Source: a virus
IMG/VR virus record: IMGVR_UViG_3300006059_000003
Location: 1-63,933 of that record
Length of the DNA: 63,933 bases
Direction: 5' to 3' (one strand)
Positions 35,230-60,511 of the stretch are shown here, in pieces. The position numbers were made by a program, and so were the translations under genes. Under the pieces are notes generated by a model. It had not been told where the DNA came from and did no database searches. It was given only the letters and a program-made list of their open reading frames with translations. Each line of letters starts with the position of its first letter. The stretch's first letter is position 1.

Positions 35230-38190
35230 ATGGCTACTTTAGTCTTAGGTGTGGCAGGTGCAGTAGTTGGAGGTATTGCTACAGGAGGTTCTCCACAAGG
35301 GATAATGTTAGGTTGGTCTGTAGGAGCTACATTAGGTGGTTTTATAGATCAATCAAAGCAACACTTCTATACTTCCGATATGGGTAAACTATCAGACCTA
35401 AGAGTTACTGTAGCCTCTTATGGTTCTTTTATTACTCAGGCTTTTGGGCATGTTAGAGTTCCTACATCGCTAATATGGGGAACTGATTTTGTAGAACACG
35501 AATCAGATGTAAATAGTGGAGGAGGTTCGGGTGGTCCTAAAGTAACTACACGAACTTATGCTTATACTGTATCTTTTGCAATAGCTATTTGTAAAGGTCA
35601 AGCATCTACATCTACTATGACTATCACCAAAATCTTTGGTGATGATTTACTTATATATGATTCCTCTCTTGCTAATACAGAAACTAATATTATAGATTCT
35701 TCTTCTGTACATTCTGGAAAAGAAATTAATCCTGTTGTTGGATTTGATGGATTAAGTATTAGATGGTATTGTGGTAATGAGACACAAGATGCAGATTCGT
35801 TAATGGTAGTTTCTGCTGGTACTACAGCTTTACCTGCTGGTTCTGATAATCCTGCATTTAGAGGATTGTGTTATGCAGTATTTCAAGATTTACCACTAGC
35901 TAAATTCGGAAACAGAATTCCTAATATTAGTGTAGAACTTTCTACTCCTGATAACCTTTCGACAATAGTAAATCAGATAACAGATCAAGTTGGGATTAAT
36001 CTTTCAGGTGGTCCTTATGGTACTCTAGTAACTACTACTATAGCAGGAATAACTATAGGTGGTATGCTAATTTCCAGTAGAATAGATTGTAAAAGTGCAT
36101 TACAAGCGTTAATGGATTTTTATGATTTCGATATAGTAGAAATCGATGGAAGTGTAACTTGTATACTTCGTGGAGCAAGTACTATTGCAACACTATCTTA
36201 TGTTGATATGGGATATACTTCTGTAGGTTCTGGACCTGCACCTGAAATACAAAGACTAATAAAAACTAGACAAGATACTTCTACTCTTCCTTCCAGAGTA
36301 GACGTAGGCTACCTAAGTTCTAATATAGATTATCAGAACGCAACACAAGCGGCATTAAGGTTAAGTGCTAGACATAATAACTTTGCTTCTTTTCAGTATC
36401 CCTTAGTTCTTACAGACGATCAAGGTAGACAATTCGCAGAGCGAAAGCTGTATATTCTCTGGGTGGAAAAAGAGACATATCAGATTTCAGTATCCCCTTC
36501 TTTTGCTAATCTAGTTCCTACAGATTGCCTTATGATTCAGATTGATTCTTATGGTAATACTCAACGTGCAAGAATTACAGAACTAGAAGGAGGTTCTCTA
36601 GGAGAAATAAAACTCACTTTAGTAAAAGATGAAGATGCAGTTTATACACAAAGTATTACGGGTACTACTCCTACCGGAGGAACTACAGGAGTTCCGGTAG
36701 TAACGACTGACTTCTTTGTATGGTCTGGTACGGAACTCTCTGATACTGACAGTACCTCTCCTGGCTTCTACGTTGCCGTTTCAGGTGCCTCCGGGTGGCA
36801 AGGCGGGATAATTTACGTTTCCGTAGGTGGAGGAGCGTATACGGCGGTAGGGACGATTTCTCAAAGATCGGTTTTTGGAACTGTAAGTAATGTATTAGGG
36901 AACACTTATGTCCCTGATGGGAATGGATTTGATGTAACAAATACTTTAAATGTCATAACTAATGGAGTACTTAATTCTACAGATGAAAACTCTGTATTAA
37001 ATGGATTAGGTAATTATGGTTTACTAATGGATTACATTGGTAATAATTCTCCATTAACTTCTTATGAGATTTTTGGATTCGATACTGCTACACTAACTTC
37101 TACAAACCACTATACCTTATCAGGATTTCTTCGTTCCCAGAGAAATACTGTAGTAACTGGACACCTCTCCACAGATAGATTCGTGCAGTTAAGTTCTGCT
37201 ATCCAGAGAATTATTGTTGCAGAAAATCTAATAGGCCAGGATATTAATGTTAAGGTAGCTTCTCCATCAGTCGATCTAACTACGGTAACTGCACAGACTA
37301 TTAAAATTGCTACACCTTCTCATATTTATGCTTCTCCTGCTGATGCAACTTCTGCGGCTAATGCAACACGTACTCCCTATTGGAGAATTAGAGGATACTT
37401 AGGTGGACATAAGGGAGTCCTAGATTCTACATACTTCCTGGCAAGTAACGGTACTCCCCAAGCTAATCATCAATATACTACATTTACTGTAGTAATAAGT
37501 ACTACTGGATTAATAACAGGTTCTTATACTATTACAGTAAATGATATAACTAAAGCTAGTTCCCAAACTGCTACTATTCTAGTAACAGATACTACAGCAA
37601 ACATAAAGACAAAAATAGAAGCATTGTCTAATGTAGGAGCAGGAAATACTTCTATTACTGGAACTCCTACAAACTACACTCTAACTTTTACTGGTACTTC
37701 TATCTTTATTGACCTAATAAAGATAACTTCAAATAGTTCTGGTATTGGAGGGTTGCTGACTTCTTTTGTACAAACTTATGTAGAAGGTACACACGATAAA
37801 TTCTGGCAAGAATCATCCTTATCTCCTATAGATGTTTCATGGCGATATGAAACACCTGGAATGGGATACAACATGTATGCCAGAATTAATATAAAAAATA
37901 CGACAGGCTCTACTAAGTCGTTTAATTGGTGGATTCCAGCGTTTGATAATCACATGGTAGTAATAATTAATGGAACCACAGTATTTTCGGATGGTGTAAT
38001 AACTTCGGGAGAAACTACAGATGCTACACAAACCGGGGGTCCGATTGCAGTAACAGCAGGAACAACCTATTTGATAGAGATTTTCTACAGTAATAATCCT
38101 GCTACTTATGACCCTACAGATCAAGGAGTAGTAACATTTATTACAGATGCTTTAGCAAATGGTTTAACGTGGGTAGATGCAGGAGTTTAA
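35230..38190 (+). CDS. Tail-tip / receptor-binding protein (986 aa)
   Basis: Central tail fibre-like protein of the gp15/TipJ class: the N-terminus has Gly/Ala helices (VLGVAGAVVGGIATGG) then GKLSDLRVTVASYGSFITQAF, as in that family, and residues 285-430 resemble its phage-tail domain. Residues about 745-845 contain the same beta domain as the protein at 19712 (TANIKTKIEALSNVGAGNTS...). Bases 36690-36870 are clearly richer in GC than the rest and encode a short beta-rich insert, a sign of domain exchange. Confidence 0.8.
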   Translation: MATLVLGVAGAVVGGIATGGSPQGIMLGWSVGATLGGFIDQSKQHFYTSDMGKLSDLRVTVASYGSFITQAFGHVRVPTSLIWGTDFVEHESDVNSGGGSGGPKVTTRTYAYTVSFAIAICKGQASTSTMTITKIFGDDLLIYDSSLANTETNIIDSSSVHSGKEINPVVGFDGLSIRWYCGNETQDADSLMVVSAGTTALPAGSDNPAFRGLCYAVFQDLPLAKFGNRIPNISVELSTPDNLSTIVNQITDQVGINLSGGPYGTLVTTTIAGITIGGMLISSRIDCKSALQALMDFYDFDIVEIDGSVTCILRGASTIATLSYVDMGYTSVGSGPAPEIQRLIKTRQDTSTLPSRVDVGYLSSNIDYQNATQAALRLSARHNNFASFQYPLVLTDDQGRQFAERKLYILWVEKETYQISVSPSFANLVPTDCLMIQIDSYGNTQRARITELEGGSLGEIKLTLVKDEDAVYTQSITGTTPTGGTTGVPVVTTDFFVWSGTELSDTDSTSPGFYVAVSGASGWQGGIIYVSVGGGAYTAVGTISQRSVFGTVSNVLGNTYVPDGNGFDVTNTLNVITNGVLNSTDENSVLNGLGNYGLLMDYIGNNSPLTSYEIFGFDTATLTSTNHYTLSGFLRSQRNTVVTGHLSTDRFVQLSSAIQRIIVAENLIGQDINVKVASPSVDLTTVTAQTIKIATPSHIYASPADATSAANATRTPYWRIRGYLGGHKGVLDSTYFLASNGTPQANHQYTTFTVVISTTGLITGSYTITVNDITKASSQTATILVTDTTANIKTKIEALSNVGAGNTSITGTPTNYTLTFTGTSIFIDLIKITSNSSGIGGLLTSFVQTYVEGTHDKFWQESSLSPIDVSWRYETPGMGYNMYARINIKNTTGSTKSFNWWIPAFDNHMVVIINGTTVFSDGVITSGETTDATQTGGPIAVTAGTTYLIEIFYSNNPATYDPTDQGVVTFITDALANGLTWVDAGV

Positions 38191-54561: not shown

Positions 54562-57500
54562 ATGGTTTATATAAAGAAAGACAATATGAAAGTTCCTGCT
54601 GTACTTCGTCCGTTTATAAGGTTAGGTTTTGTGTATGATGAAGAGAAAGTATCAGGTGTAAATGTAAGAGGAGATTGTATCTTCTGTGGTAAAGTAGATA
54701 AATTTTACATACGTATAGAAGACGGTATAGGAAGTGATGGTAAGGAAAAGAAAGCGGGAATGTGGGATTGTAAATCCTGTCAGAAACTAGGGAATGTATA
54801 TTCCTTTATGAAGTTCTGGTATGATTTTTGGTTAGAAGAAAGGAAAAATTACAGTAAACAGTTTATAGAATTATCCTTAGATAGAGGAGTACCTGCAAAA
54901 ACTCTAAAAGATGCAGGAATTGTATATGACAATGACCAATTTGCTATTCCTGTAAGAAATGCAACAGGAACTATAAACAACTTCCGTTTCTACAATTTCT
55001 TTGGTAAAATTCCTAGAGGCAAAAAGAAACATCAACTCTATGGAATGCCGGAATTAGACAGTCAACTGTATGGTATGGATTCTCTTTTCCAGGGAGTAGC
55101 ACGCGGAATTCAGAAAGTGTATATCTGCTATAGTGCTGATACTGAAATTCTTACAGAAGAAGGTTGGATAAAATTTCCTACCCTTAAAAATCAAAAAGTA
55201 GCGCAATATGCAGAGAACACTCAGAATATAACTTTTGTAAAACCTCTAGCAAAACAGATTTTACCATATAGTAAGAAGATGGTAAATATAAAGGGTAATT
55301 CTTGTGACTTACTTGTAACTCCTGAACATAGAGTTCTTATAAAAGAAACAGATGGTATAAGAACTATACGTGCAGATCAAGTAAAGTCAGGAATGGTACT
55401 TCCTGTTTCTGGAGAATATAGAGGTAAAGGTTATTCTCCTAGTAATAACGAAGTAAAGCTACTTGTAGCTTATGCAGCTGATGGTCATAAAGAAAGAGGT
55501 AATAGACGTGCCTGGGCTTTTAAGAAAGAACGTAAAGTAAGTAGATTAATTGAGATACTAGAGTCATTAGAAATTCCGTACAAATTTGGTGGACTTTCTG
55601 CTAAAGGGTATACTCAAATAGTTGTTATGGCTTACGATGCTCCTATTCTTGACAGGATTATGCCTACTAAGCAGATAACTTCTGACTTTATTCACTGGTC
55701 TGTAGAAGCTAGAGAAACTCTAATTAATGAGTTAAGATTTTGGGACGGTGATACTGTCAGTAAGTACACACATAGAGTGTTTAGTGCAGATAAAGTACAA
55801 GTAGATGCTATCTCTTCCATATGCGTAACTACTGGATATAGTTGTAATATAAGAGAGGATACTAGAAAAAGCAGTATAAACTATATACTAAACATATCAC
55901 CTAGGAAGTATAGAAATGTAACTTCAGTTACTACACAAAGAAATATAACTAATAAAGTTTACTGTGTTACTGTACCTACAGGTACGGTAGTAGTAAGACG
56001 TAATGGGAAAATAGTTATCTGTAGAAACTGCGAGGGCGAATGGGATACTATAGCCTTAGAGTATCTATTAAGTAAAGAAAGTGTAGAAGCTATAGTTGTA
56101 GGAACTCCAGGTGCTAATACATGGAAAGCGTCTTGGAACAAATGTTTCTCTGGAAAGGAAGTTACTATATGTTATGATGTAGGAAGTGAAGGTGAGAAAG
56201 GTACAGAGAAAGTTTATCATAACCTAAAAGATATAGTAAGTAAGAGTAGTCCAATTAAGTATATTAATTGGAGTAAGAAAGGTGACTTACCTGATGGTTA
56301 CGATGTAAGAGACCATATAAAGCAAGGAGGAACTTATGAACAGTTTATACAGCTTGAAGAGAAATATACGTCTATCCCTGTAAAGGAAGAACAGAAACAA
56401 ACTGAGATAGAAAATACTCCTACTCTTCAAGAAGTCCAACAATCTAAATCACTATCTGCTAAACGCCCTACTTTTGAGAAGGTCTTAAAAGCCTATAGAA
56501 AGTATTTGTTTATGGATAAGGATATGGAGAATGGACTCAGGATAATGTTTGCTACTTGTCTTACTGTAGGAATAAAAGGTGACCCTCTATGGGTACATAC
56601 TATTGGCCCTCCTGGTAGTGGAAAAACTGCATTACTTATGTCTCTATCTAAGGTGAAGATAGTAGTATCTAAATCTTCTATTACAAGAAATGTACTTGTA
56701 TCTGGTATGAATGTCCATCCAGACCCTTCGTTAATTCCTAGACTTAATGGTAAACTATTTGTCTTTAAAGATTTTACAGAGTTGTTAGGTATGAGAAGTG
56801 ATGACAAGGAGTTTATATTTTCTACACTTAGAGGAGTGTATGATGGTACACTTGAAAAAGATCACGGCAACGGAACACAAAGAGATTTCAAATCTCACTT
56901 CAATATGCTTACAGGAGTAACTCAAAAGATATTCACAGAAAATAGATCAATCATGGGTGAAAGATTTCTTCTGTACCATATGGTAAAAGGTACAGATTAT
57001 GACAGTCGTAATCCTGTAATGGCGGCAATAGATTCTGTGGGTAGTGAAGTACCAATACATGAAGAACTTGTAGGAATTGCGGCAGAGTATCTTGATGTTA
57101 GAGTAAGTAAGGAAGATATACCAGTAATTCCTCAACATTATAAAGAGAAGATATACTCTCTAGCATGTCTTACTTCGTTATTACGTGCTACTGTGGAAAG
57201 ACTGTCAAAGGTAGATAGGAAGTTAATGCTACGTCCACAACAAGAAATGCCTACACGAATTGCTAAACAGCTAACTAAACTCCTTATGGGATTATCTCTA
57301 CTAAATACTCCAATACAGTATACTCAGGAAGACATAGCATTAGTTACTAGAGTAGCATTAGATTCATGCGTAGCATTTAACCTTGAAACAGTATCTTCGT
57401 TAATACAGAAACCAGGACAAACATTAGTCGATCTAGCAATAGATTCTAATATTCCACACTCTACATTAAGAGATCACATTGAAGATTTAGTAGAGTTAGG

Positions 57501-57717
57501 AGTTATCCGTTATGTAGCTGGAGAAACTACAAGTGACTTTCAAGGAAGAGGTAGAAAACCACACACTTACTATGTAACACCTAAGATGGAGAAAATATGG
57601 AAAGACGCTTCTCTGGAAAGAAAAGACGGTGAAGTATATATGAAGTTAAAATCTCTTTTCCAGAGAAATGTAACGCAATCGACGCAATCGCAGAAAGTAA
57701 AGGTAAAGCGAAAATGA
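54562..57717 (+). CDS. Primase-helicase with intein (1051 aa precursor)
   Basis: Replication protein: zinc finger (C39, C42 and CKSC near 70), Toprim core, ATPase, and a C-terminal winged helix (SNIPHSTLRDHIEDLVELGV). An intein (55126-56028, 301 residues) interrupts the Toprim strand VYI|CEGEWDTIAL; removal restores CEGEWD with the catalytic Glu. The helicase has GPPGSGKT (682-689) and KLFVFKDFTEL as Walker B. The spliced product would be about 750 residues. The last bases contain a hairpin copy (57652) and the protein ends KVKVKRK. Confidence 0.85.
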   Translation: MVYIKKDNMKVPAVLRPFIRLGFVYDEEKVSGVNVRGDCIFCGKVDKFYIRIEDGIGSDGKEKKAGMWDCKSCQKLGNVYSFMKFWYDFWLEERKNYSKQFIELSLDRGVPAKTLKDAGIVYDNDQFAIPVRNATGTINNFRFYNFFGKIPRGKKKHQLYGMPELDSQLYGMDSLFQGVARGIQKVYICYSADTEILTEEGWIKFPTLKNQKVAQYAENTQNITFVKPLAKQILPYSKKMVNIKGNSCDLLVTPEHRVLIKETDGIRTIRADQVKSGMVLPVSGEYRGKGYSPSNNEVKLLVAYAADGHKERGNRRAWAFKKERKVSRLIEILESLEIPYKFGGLSAKGYTQIVVMAYDAPILDRIMPTKQITSDFIHWSVEARETLINELRFWDGDTVSKYTHRVFSADKVQVDAISSICVTTGYSCNIREDTRKSSINYILNISPRKYRNVTSVTTQRNITNKVYCVTVPTGTVVVRRNGKIVICRNCEGEWDTIALEYLLSKESVEAIVVGTPGANTWKASWNKCFSGKEVTICYDVGSEGEKGTEKVYHNLKDIVSKSSPIKYINWSKKGDLPDGYDVRDHIKQGGTYEQFIQLEEKYTSIPVKEEQKQTEIENTPTLQEVQQSKSLSAKRPTFEKVLKAYRKYLFMDKDMENGLRIMFATCLTVGIKGDPLWVHTIGPPGSGKTALLMSLSKVKIVVSKSSITRNVLVSGMNVHPDPSLIPRLNGKLFVFKDFTELLGMRSDDKEFIFSTLRGVYDGTLEKDHGNGTQRDFKSHFNMLTGVTQKIFTENRSIMGERFLLYHMVKGTDYDSRNPVMAAIDSVGSEVPIHEELVGIAAEYLDVRVSKEDIPVIPQHYKEKIYSLACLTSLLRATVERLSKVDRKLMLRPQQEMPTRIAKQLTKLLMGLSLLNTPIQYTQEDIALVTRVALDSCVAFNLETVSSLIQKPGQTLVDLAIDSNIPHSTLRDHIEDLVELGVIRYVAGETTSDFQGRGRKPHTYYVTPKMEKIWKDASLERKDGEVYMKLKSLFQRNVTQSTQSQKVKVKRK
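55126..56028 (+). other. Intein with LAGLIDADG-type endonuclease in the primase
   Basis: Begins CYSADTEILTEEGW (block A) and ends NGKIVICRN followed by the extein Cys. LLVTPEHRVL is block B. LLVAYAADGH and LINELRFWDGD are the two LAGLIDADG motifs of a homing endonuclease. The penultimate residue is Arg rather than the usual His. Length 301 residues. Confidence 0.85.
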
Positions 57718-58699: not shown

Positions 58700-60511
58700 A
58701 TGGAAACAAATAACACAACTCCTCTAGCAGAAAAGAAACTATTAAATGCAGGTGTATGTGCATTAATTAGTGTAAGCGGTAGTGATCTTCTACCAGTACA
58801 AGCGGCACGAACATCATTCCGTAAATCTATTCAAGACTATACAGAAGAACAGAACGATAACTTAATGGACTATCTTATTCGTATGAAGCATGATGGTCCT
58901 GTAGAATTTCCAGATGCTATCTTCTATGTAAAGGCACCTATATTTGTTGCACGTCAATGGTTTCGACATCGTATTGGTTGTTGTCTATCAGGTAATAGTC
59001 AGATAAGTTTTGAATTACCTTGTAGATTAAAAGAGGGATATAATGAGCAAAGACTTTTCTCTTTAGAGTACTTGTACAATAACTGGATTAAATCAGAATA
59101 TAATAGAAGAAGAATACAAAGTATGATTCTTCGTTGTGTGGATGAAAGTGACAATACTTTAATAACTTCACATATATCCAATATATATAGTAATGGCAAG
59201 AAGCATGTATATAGGACATACTTTAAGAATGGTTCTATGTTAGAATGCACTAAACAGCATAAATGTCTAACTAAATATGGATGGATGACATTAGAAGAAG
59301 CATTAGAAATTAATGCAGAATTTATGACTTCATCTAAAGTTGAAAGAGATAAAGAAGTTGTACCTCTTTCTTTTATAGATAGTATAGTAGGAGAAGAATG
59401 GAGGAAAATACAAGGTTATGGAGGTAGATACGAAGTTTCTAATTTAGGAAGAATTAGATCATACTCTACTACATCATATAATGGAGATGTATCTAATATT
59501 CCTACTATTAAGAGACAATCAATAGTATCTTCTGGATATTATGTAGTAAATTTATCAGAAAATGGAAAATCTCATGTTAGAACAGTACACCAACTTGTAC
59601 TTGAATCTTTCTCTAAACAAAAAAGAAAGAATGAACAAGAAACTAGACATATTAATAGCTGTAGAACAGATAATAGAATAGATAACTTATGTTGGGCATC
59701 TTCTAAAGAGAACGCTAGTGATAGAAAACTAAAAGGGTCAAATAAGTTATCTATAAACTACACCTCTATTATAAAGTCAGAGTATTTAGGATATATAAAT
59801 ACTTATGATATAGAAGTAGAAGGTAAATATCATAACTTTTTTGCTAACAATATTGTGGTACATAATTCTTACAATGAAGAGTCTCTCCGATACATAGAAC
59901 CTTGTAAGGAGTTCTATATTCCTTCTCCAGAAGAATGTAAGGGTAAACCTAAGAATGCAAAACAAGGTGCAGGAGACTTACTTGATGAAGAAGATGCACA
60001 AACAGCACAAGATATAATTTCTGCAATAGGAGGAGAAGCACACTCTTGTTATGCACAATTAGCAAGATTAGGATTAGCTAATGAACTAAGTAGAACTGTA
60101 CTTCCTTTAGGTCAATATACTGCATTCTATTTTAAGATTAACCTACGTGCTTTGTTCCACTTTCTAGGGTTACGTCTTAATCCACATGCACAATATCAAA
60201 TACGTGTATATGCTATGACTATGACAGAAATGCTTAAACCATACTTTCCTGTAGCTTTTGAGGCTTTTGAAAATCACATTTTAAATGCAGTAACTTTCTC
60301 TGCTGATGAATGGAAGATATTAAAAGACTTAATAATAAGTGAATGTGGTAATACTCCTTTTTATTCGGGAGGTAGAGAAGAAATATGGGAAAGATTTACT
60401 AATGATTCTGTAGAAAATGATTCAATAGTACATGGGTTACGAAAAACAAGAATTACAGAGCTAATACAGAAACTAAACAAACAACCAATAGAAATAAAAG
60501 GATACAAATAG
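58700..60511 (+). CDS. thyX: Flavin-dependent thymidylate synthase with intein (603 aa precursor)
   Basis: Converts dUMP to dTMP using FAD and methylene-tetrahydrofolate. The ThyX signature RHRxxSxNExSxRY is split: FRHRIG before the intein and SYNEESLRYIEP after it. Splicing restores the motif exactly. The C-terminal half shows RTVLPLGQYTAFYFKINLRA and HAQYQIRVYA, typical for ThyX. The spliced length is about 307 residues. It sits with dCTP deaminase and DUF3310 in a nucleotide supply cluster. Confidence 0.9.
   Translation: METNNTTPLAEKKLLNAGVCALISVSGSDLLPVQAARTSFRKSIQDYTEEQNDNLMDYLIRMKHDGPVEFPDAIFYVKAPIFVARQWFRHRIGCCLSGNSQISFELPCRLKEGYNEQRLFSLEYLYNNWIKSEYNRRRIQSMILRCVDESDNTLITSHISNIYSNGKKHVYRTYFKNGSMLECTKQHKCLTKYGWMTLEEALEINAEFMTSSKVERDKEVVPLSFIDSIVGEEWRKIQGYGGRYEVSNLGRIRSYSTTSYNGDVSNIPTIKRQSIVSSGYYVVNLSENGKSHVRTVHQLVLESFSKQKRKNEQETRHINSCRTDNRIDNLCWASSKENASDRKLKGSNKLSINYTSIIKSEYLGYINTYDIEVEGKYHNFFANNIVVHNSYNEESLRYIEPCKEFYIPSPEECKGKPKNAKQGAGDLLDEEDAQTAQDIISAIGGEAHSCYAQLARLGLANELSRTVLPLGQYTAFYFKINLRALFHFLGLRLNPHAQYQIRVYAMTMTEMLKPYFPVAFEAFENHILNAVTFSADEWKILKDLIISECGNTPFYSGGREEIWERFTNDSVENDSIVHGLRKTRITELIQKLNKQPIEIKGYK
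58979..59866 (+). other. Intein with HNH-type endonuclease in thyX
   Basis: Begins at CCLSGNSQISF and ends FANNIVVHN before the extein Ser. The central domain has WRKIQGYGGRYEVSNLGRIR (NUMOD4) and SCRTDNRIDNLCWASSKEN (HNH_3), so it is a homing endonuclease of a different type from the primase intein. Which of the two adjacent Cys is residue 1 is unclear; the first restores the exact ThyX motif, the second fits block A spacing better. Confidence 0.85.

Follow-up and report, generated by a model that had tools for sequence, protein, structure and literature searches.

In a tailed phage, the gene for the flavin-dependent thymidylate synthase ThyX is interrupted by an insert that is best explained, with high confidence, as a cis-splicing intein of class 1 type in which a NUMOD4-HNH_3 homing endonuclease of the I-HmuI kind is nested. 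The window, the whole 63,933-base virus record analysed here, carries genes for terminase, tape measure, helicase and DNA polymerase, and is therefore judged to derive from a tailed phage, whose nearest annotated relatives are distant.

The interrupted ThyX gene

Positions 58700 to 60511 translate as a single stop-free frame of 603 residues in which ThyX profiles flank an insert on both sides (Pfam Thy1, E 1.9e-41; NCBIfam thyX, E 1.2e-42), and the joined exteins match a solved ThyX at 2.4e-45. Scanned alone, the insert matches the Pfam models Intein_splicing, NUMOD4 and HNH_3, all above curated cut-offs; these E-values, like those of ThyX, are far beyond chance (Table 1). The junction reads VKAPIFVARQWFRHRIGC/intein/SYNEESLRY (slashes mark splice points), and the intein ends in His-Asn followed by Ser (VVHN/S), the terminal Asn codon being 59864-59866. 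An earlier note on this DNA had placed an HNH-type intein with NUMOD4 and HNH_3 segments between RHRIG and SYNEESLRY, within the RHR...S catalytic signature of ThyX, and the frame and profiles bear this out.

Table 1. Features of the interrupted thyX gene, in positions of the window
Feature	Position	Strand	Evidence
ThyX N-extein, 94 aa, ending ...VARQWFRHRIGC; Cys94 at intein position -1 (most likely register)	58700..58981	+	Thy1/thyX profiles; intein-free homologue L419
Intein (predicted), 295 aa, Cys1 (Cys95) to terminal Asn (Asn389)	58982..59866	+	Intein_splicing, 4e-11; gap-free block A alignment with same-site inteins; model fold
Block A, CLSGNSQISF	58982..59011	+	Profile from 66 same-site inteins
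Block B, TxxH (TKQH)	59249..59260	+	His invariant in 13-sequence alignment A1
NUMOD4 domain	59393..59557	+	Pfam NUMOD4, 3.6e-11
HNH_3 core	59645..59716	+	Pfam HNH_3, 1.2e-5, positions 22-45 of 46; aligns with I-HmuI (1u3e), E 3.4e-7
Blocks F/G, HNFFANNIVVHN, with penultimate His and terminal Asn	59831..59866	+	NCBIfam intein_Cterm over cut-off; invariant columns in A1
ThyX C-extein, +1 Ser (SYNEESLRY...), 214 aa and stop	59867..60511	+	Thy1/thyX profiles

By its features the insert is a complete intein of class 1 type, within which NUMOD4 and HNH_3 domains are nested, and it is predicted from its sequence to splice. A cysteine stands at the intein N-terminus within block A (CLSGNSQI), and the insertion is in frame, with intein-free homologues that lack exactly the insert (the viral ThyX L419, described below, and the phage pair TinyTim and Gizmo). 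An AlphaFold model of the intein and short flanks, built on a 13-sequence alignment (mean pLDDT 76), has the intein HINT fold and superposes on DnaB, RecA and DnaE inteins with Z scores of 18-21 (maximum 21.4).

The class 1 mechanism is established, and the blocks of the window intein allow it to be applied here. Cys95 would attack the Cys94-Cys95 bond in an N-S shift, aided by the TxxH of block B, to give a thioester; the N-extein would then pass to Ser390 (+1), and Asn389 would cyclise with the aid of His388. The exteins would be ligated as RHRIGC-SYNEESLRY, yielding a ThyX of 308 residues with 8 residues between RHR and Ser. The precursor, in which the catalytic signature is still split, should have no activity before splicing. 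Co-infecting phages with an intein-free thyX would have the conserved site cut by the HNH domain, and repair would copy the intein in.

That the insert is not an intein but a group I intron, or a free-standing HNH gene lying within thyX, has next to no probability. The one point in favor is the NUMOD4-HNH_3 pair, domains characteristic of endonucleases from group I introns (I-HmuI is an example), but the frame is open throughout and holds intein splicing blocks. A search of the window against Rfam gave no match to a group I intron or to any other RNA at the gathering threshold.

The first residue of the intein and the length of the signature

Two adjacent cysteines, Cys94 and Cys95, open the insert, and the earlier note regarded the splice point as open for this reason. 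Comparison largely settles the matter in favor of the second cysteine. In a profile of the first ten positions of 66 other same-site inteins, all of which begin C-[LVIM] with no extra residue, block A scores +18.0 bits from Cys95 and -12.7 bits from Cys94. In the AlphaFold model, residue 11 (Cys95) falls on residue 1 of the RecA and DnaE intein chains; since the alignment behind the model had Cys95 in the Cys1 column from the outset, this agreement supports the register and is not independent proof of it. Cys95 is thus most likely Cys1 and Cys94 the last residue of the N-extein. Accepting the second cysteine shifts the start by one codon: of the span 58979-59866 proposed earlier, the end stands, while the start becomes 58982 and the codon at 58979-58981 most likely belongs to the extein.

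Comparison with an intein-free ThyX, proposed earlier as a check, supports a start at Cys95. A scan for intein-free RHRxGC-S[YF]NExS recovered one viral ThyX, L419 (IMGVR_UViG_3300042923_000319, positions 36332-36922 of the contig), which reads VKAPIFVARQWMRHRVGC-SYNEKSLRY (RHRVGC-SYNEKSLRY) and keeps before Ser the same cysteine as Cys94 of the window. Identity to the window ThyX is only 41-44% over two matched pieces, so L419 represents a homologous empty site and not the same allele. A direct search of IMG/VR for close relatives of the whole ThyX precursor found none, and so provided no true empty allele of the window phage.

A scan for Cys-Cys starts returned mostly non-ThyX proteins and one further ThyX intein, L402, which reads THRVGC/CLSGDT...VVHN/SFDVQS and has the same NUMOD4-HNH_3 type of endonuclease. 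In its cyanophage-type ThyX class, two intein-free members, L417 and L418, keep the junction cysteine and read THRIGC-SFDVQS, with Gly-Cys before Ser. The dCTP deaminase and primase that neighbor the window thyX were not found in the records of L419, L402 or L143 (a third intein with this endonuclease type), which are therefore not close relatives of the window phage as far as the records reach.

Splicing at Cys95 would leave 8 residues between RHR and Ser, compared with the 7 of the textbook ThyX signature, RHRX7S. In support of Cys95, the longer spacing, as RHRxG[WFHMV]-SYNEES, is an abundant natural variant: pattern-limited scans recovered at least 119 intein-free viral ThyX that have it, a number that is not a frequency. 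Against it, none of these 119 has a cysteine at -1. The form RHRIG-S[FY]NExS, with 7 residues, is common among the viral ThyX scanned. In extein trees, the 7- and 8-residue forms are interleaved, the 8-residue form appearing on separate branches. When the motif is masked, the window ThyX falls among the 7-residue forms, which points weakly to that branch and counts against the Cys95 register. Given this grouping and how common RHRIG-S[FY]NExS is, the extra cysteine is unusual for the branch of the window ThyX. A glycine before the junction was considered as a mark of the 8-residue class and dropped, as a wider scan showed many 7-residue RHRIG-S forms.

These observations bear on a different register, in which the intein starts at Cys94, for instance after duplication of a TGT codon, and splices to the 7-residue RHRIG-SYNEES typical of its ThyX branch. 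The position of the window ThyX in the trees, the abundance of RHRIG-S[FY]NExS in phages and the simple tandem repeat TGT TGT that encodes Cys94-Cys95 all fit such a start, which is nevertheless improbable: it breaks the block A pattern common to all 66 profile inteins, a genuine junction cysteine is present in an intein-free ThyX, and the class of the second Cys-Cys intein includes two intein-free members that keep theirs. An older 7-residue extein with a codon duplicated next to the intein is possible, and even then block A would place the cut bond between Cys94 and Cys95. It is a long shot that the Cys(-1)-Cys1 pair, seen in two ThyX inteins with the same endonuclease type, is itself functional, either by making ThyX splicing redox-sensitive or by permitting two splice registers that would give a 7- or an 8-residue signature.

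The ThyX signature can hold 7 or 8 residues exactly where inteins insert. This matters wherever a ThyX is called active or broken from RHRX7S.

The nested endonuclease domain and the probable primase intein

The nested domain resembles I-HmuI, an intron-encoded HNH homing endonuclease, in sequence and in modelled fold. Both have the NUMOD4 plus HNH arrangement, and the folds superpose with an rmsd of 2.3 over 115 columns. In the insert alone, NUMOD4 scores 43.5 bits (cut-off 23.4) and HNH_3 25.2 bits (cut-off 24.8), the latter falling just below its cut-off when the whole frame is scanned. The His-Asn-Asn core is kept in alignments to 1u3e and to L143 and L402. Based on this core and the likeness to I-HmuI in sequence and fold, homing of the intein into intein-free thyX by the putative nuclease is likely.

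Whether the nuclease is active is uncertain because Arg stands before the HNH histidine where I-HmuI has Asp. In I-HmuI this Asp is a metal ligand, although it may not define the whole family. An intein that splices with a dead HNH endonuclease, so that homing has stopped, would differ from the best explanation in the nuclease only; it is unlikely, though the most plausible of the alternatives. In its favor are the incomplete HNH_3 match (22-45 of 46) and the Arg, and inteins with no recognisable endonuclease do occur at the same ThyX site. Against it, the frame is intact and the core is kept, and the same Arg-His pair is found in both other NUMOD4-type ThyX inteins, L143 and L402, so the Arg looks normal for this subgroup.

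The earlier note also proposed that the phage has two inteins with unrelated endonucleases. The primase frame (54562-57717) contains an insert of 301 residues at 55126-56028, before the TOPRIM CEGEWD motif. The region that includes it matches TOPRIM primases of mycobacteriophages that themselves bear inteins, and the insert weakly matches an intein N-terminal profile. On these two matches the insert is very likely a second intein, which ends in RN/C instead of HN/C. The other half of the proposal fared less well. No LAGLIDADG_3 match is present in the window, no profile assigns an endonuclease class to the primase insert, and its single-sequence fold (pLDDT 32) is not usable; the endonuclease looks LAGLIDADG-like by eye, from motif reading only. 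The only NUMOD4 in the window is that of the ThyX intein.

The recurrent insertion site and comparison with known inteins

The insertion site, before the Ser of SYNEES-type motifs, is occupied by 73 other inteins at the equivalent ThyX position in phages, bacteria and archaea. Mycobacteriophages have it filled, as do the 13 stretches parsed out of 14 from IMG/VR. Of 80 loci from bacteria and archaea (L432-L511), at least 57 have an intein there, with and without a recognisable endonuclease; these carriers span many phyla and include Gemmatimonadota, Elusimicrobiota, Chloroflexota, Planctomycetota, Streptomyces and Thermoplasmata. Empty and filled forms occur within one phage genus, TinyTim reading RHRSGW-SYNEES and Gizmo RHRSGF/C...HN/SYNEES. 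Most same-site inteins have a zinc-type HNH endonuclease and several have no recognisable one; the NUMOD4-HNH_3 type is found in three only, those of the window, L143 and L402. Their splicing domains, on long branches, form no single supported group, and so this nuclease may have had more than one origin or may have passed from one intein to another, a reading that is itself unsure. The window intein is a clean added case at a strikingly recurrent site in the ThyX catalytic loop, one that hosts at least two HNH endonuclease types together with forms that have no recognisable endonuclease.

Separate observations concern other proteins or other positions. A virus of Methanomassiliicoccales, L004 (BK063680.1), has a ThyX intein at another point of the signature, RHRLASY/C...HN/SQQSQRY. 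Viral proteins of up to about 930 residues on IMG/VR contigs (L391-L394, L397, L398, L401, L405, L406, L408, L410 and L411) carry MCCFAGDTxIKLANG at or near their start, an intein-like block A at the N-terminus.

Inteins in ThyX (TdS) of cluster C1 mycobacteriophages such as Gizmo were reported in 2016 (Kelley et al., PMC5050341). For the NUMOD4 type in ThyX, no paper was found in the open literature, which is weak evidence of absence. The window intein adds to a known type and is not a new system; with the site widely occupied and ThyX inteins already published, the interest assigned in the earlier note was too high.

The closest systems each share part of the design of the window intein. The Gizmo intein has the same gene, insertion point before SYNEES, splicing blocks and +1 Ser, but differs in its zinc-type HNH domain (PF01844), its extein RHRSGF and its single junction cysteine. 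The Ssp and Npu DnaB and Mtu RecA mini-inteins (1mi8, 4o1r, 2in9) share the splicing-domain fold (Z about 20-21), and differ in their host proteins and in lacking the nested NUMOD4-HNH_3 domains. L143 (IMGVR_UViG_3300020596_000032) combines the same site with NUMOD4-HNH_3 and, of all same-site inteins compared, matches the window intein best by BLAST (35.5% over 259 aa), whereas its extein is of the 7-residue form, RHRTG/C.../SFNEYS, with no Cys-Cys. L402 (IMGVR_UViG_3300014926_000105, 1977-2984) shares the site, the Cys-Cys start and the endonuclease type, with 36% identity over the whole intein, and differs in its host ThyX, which is of the cyanophage-type THRxGx-SFDVQS class.
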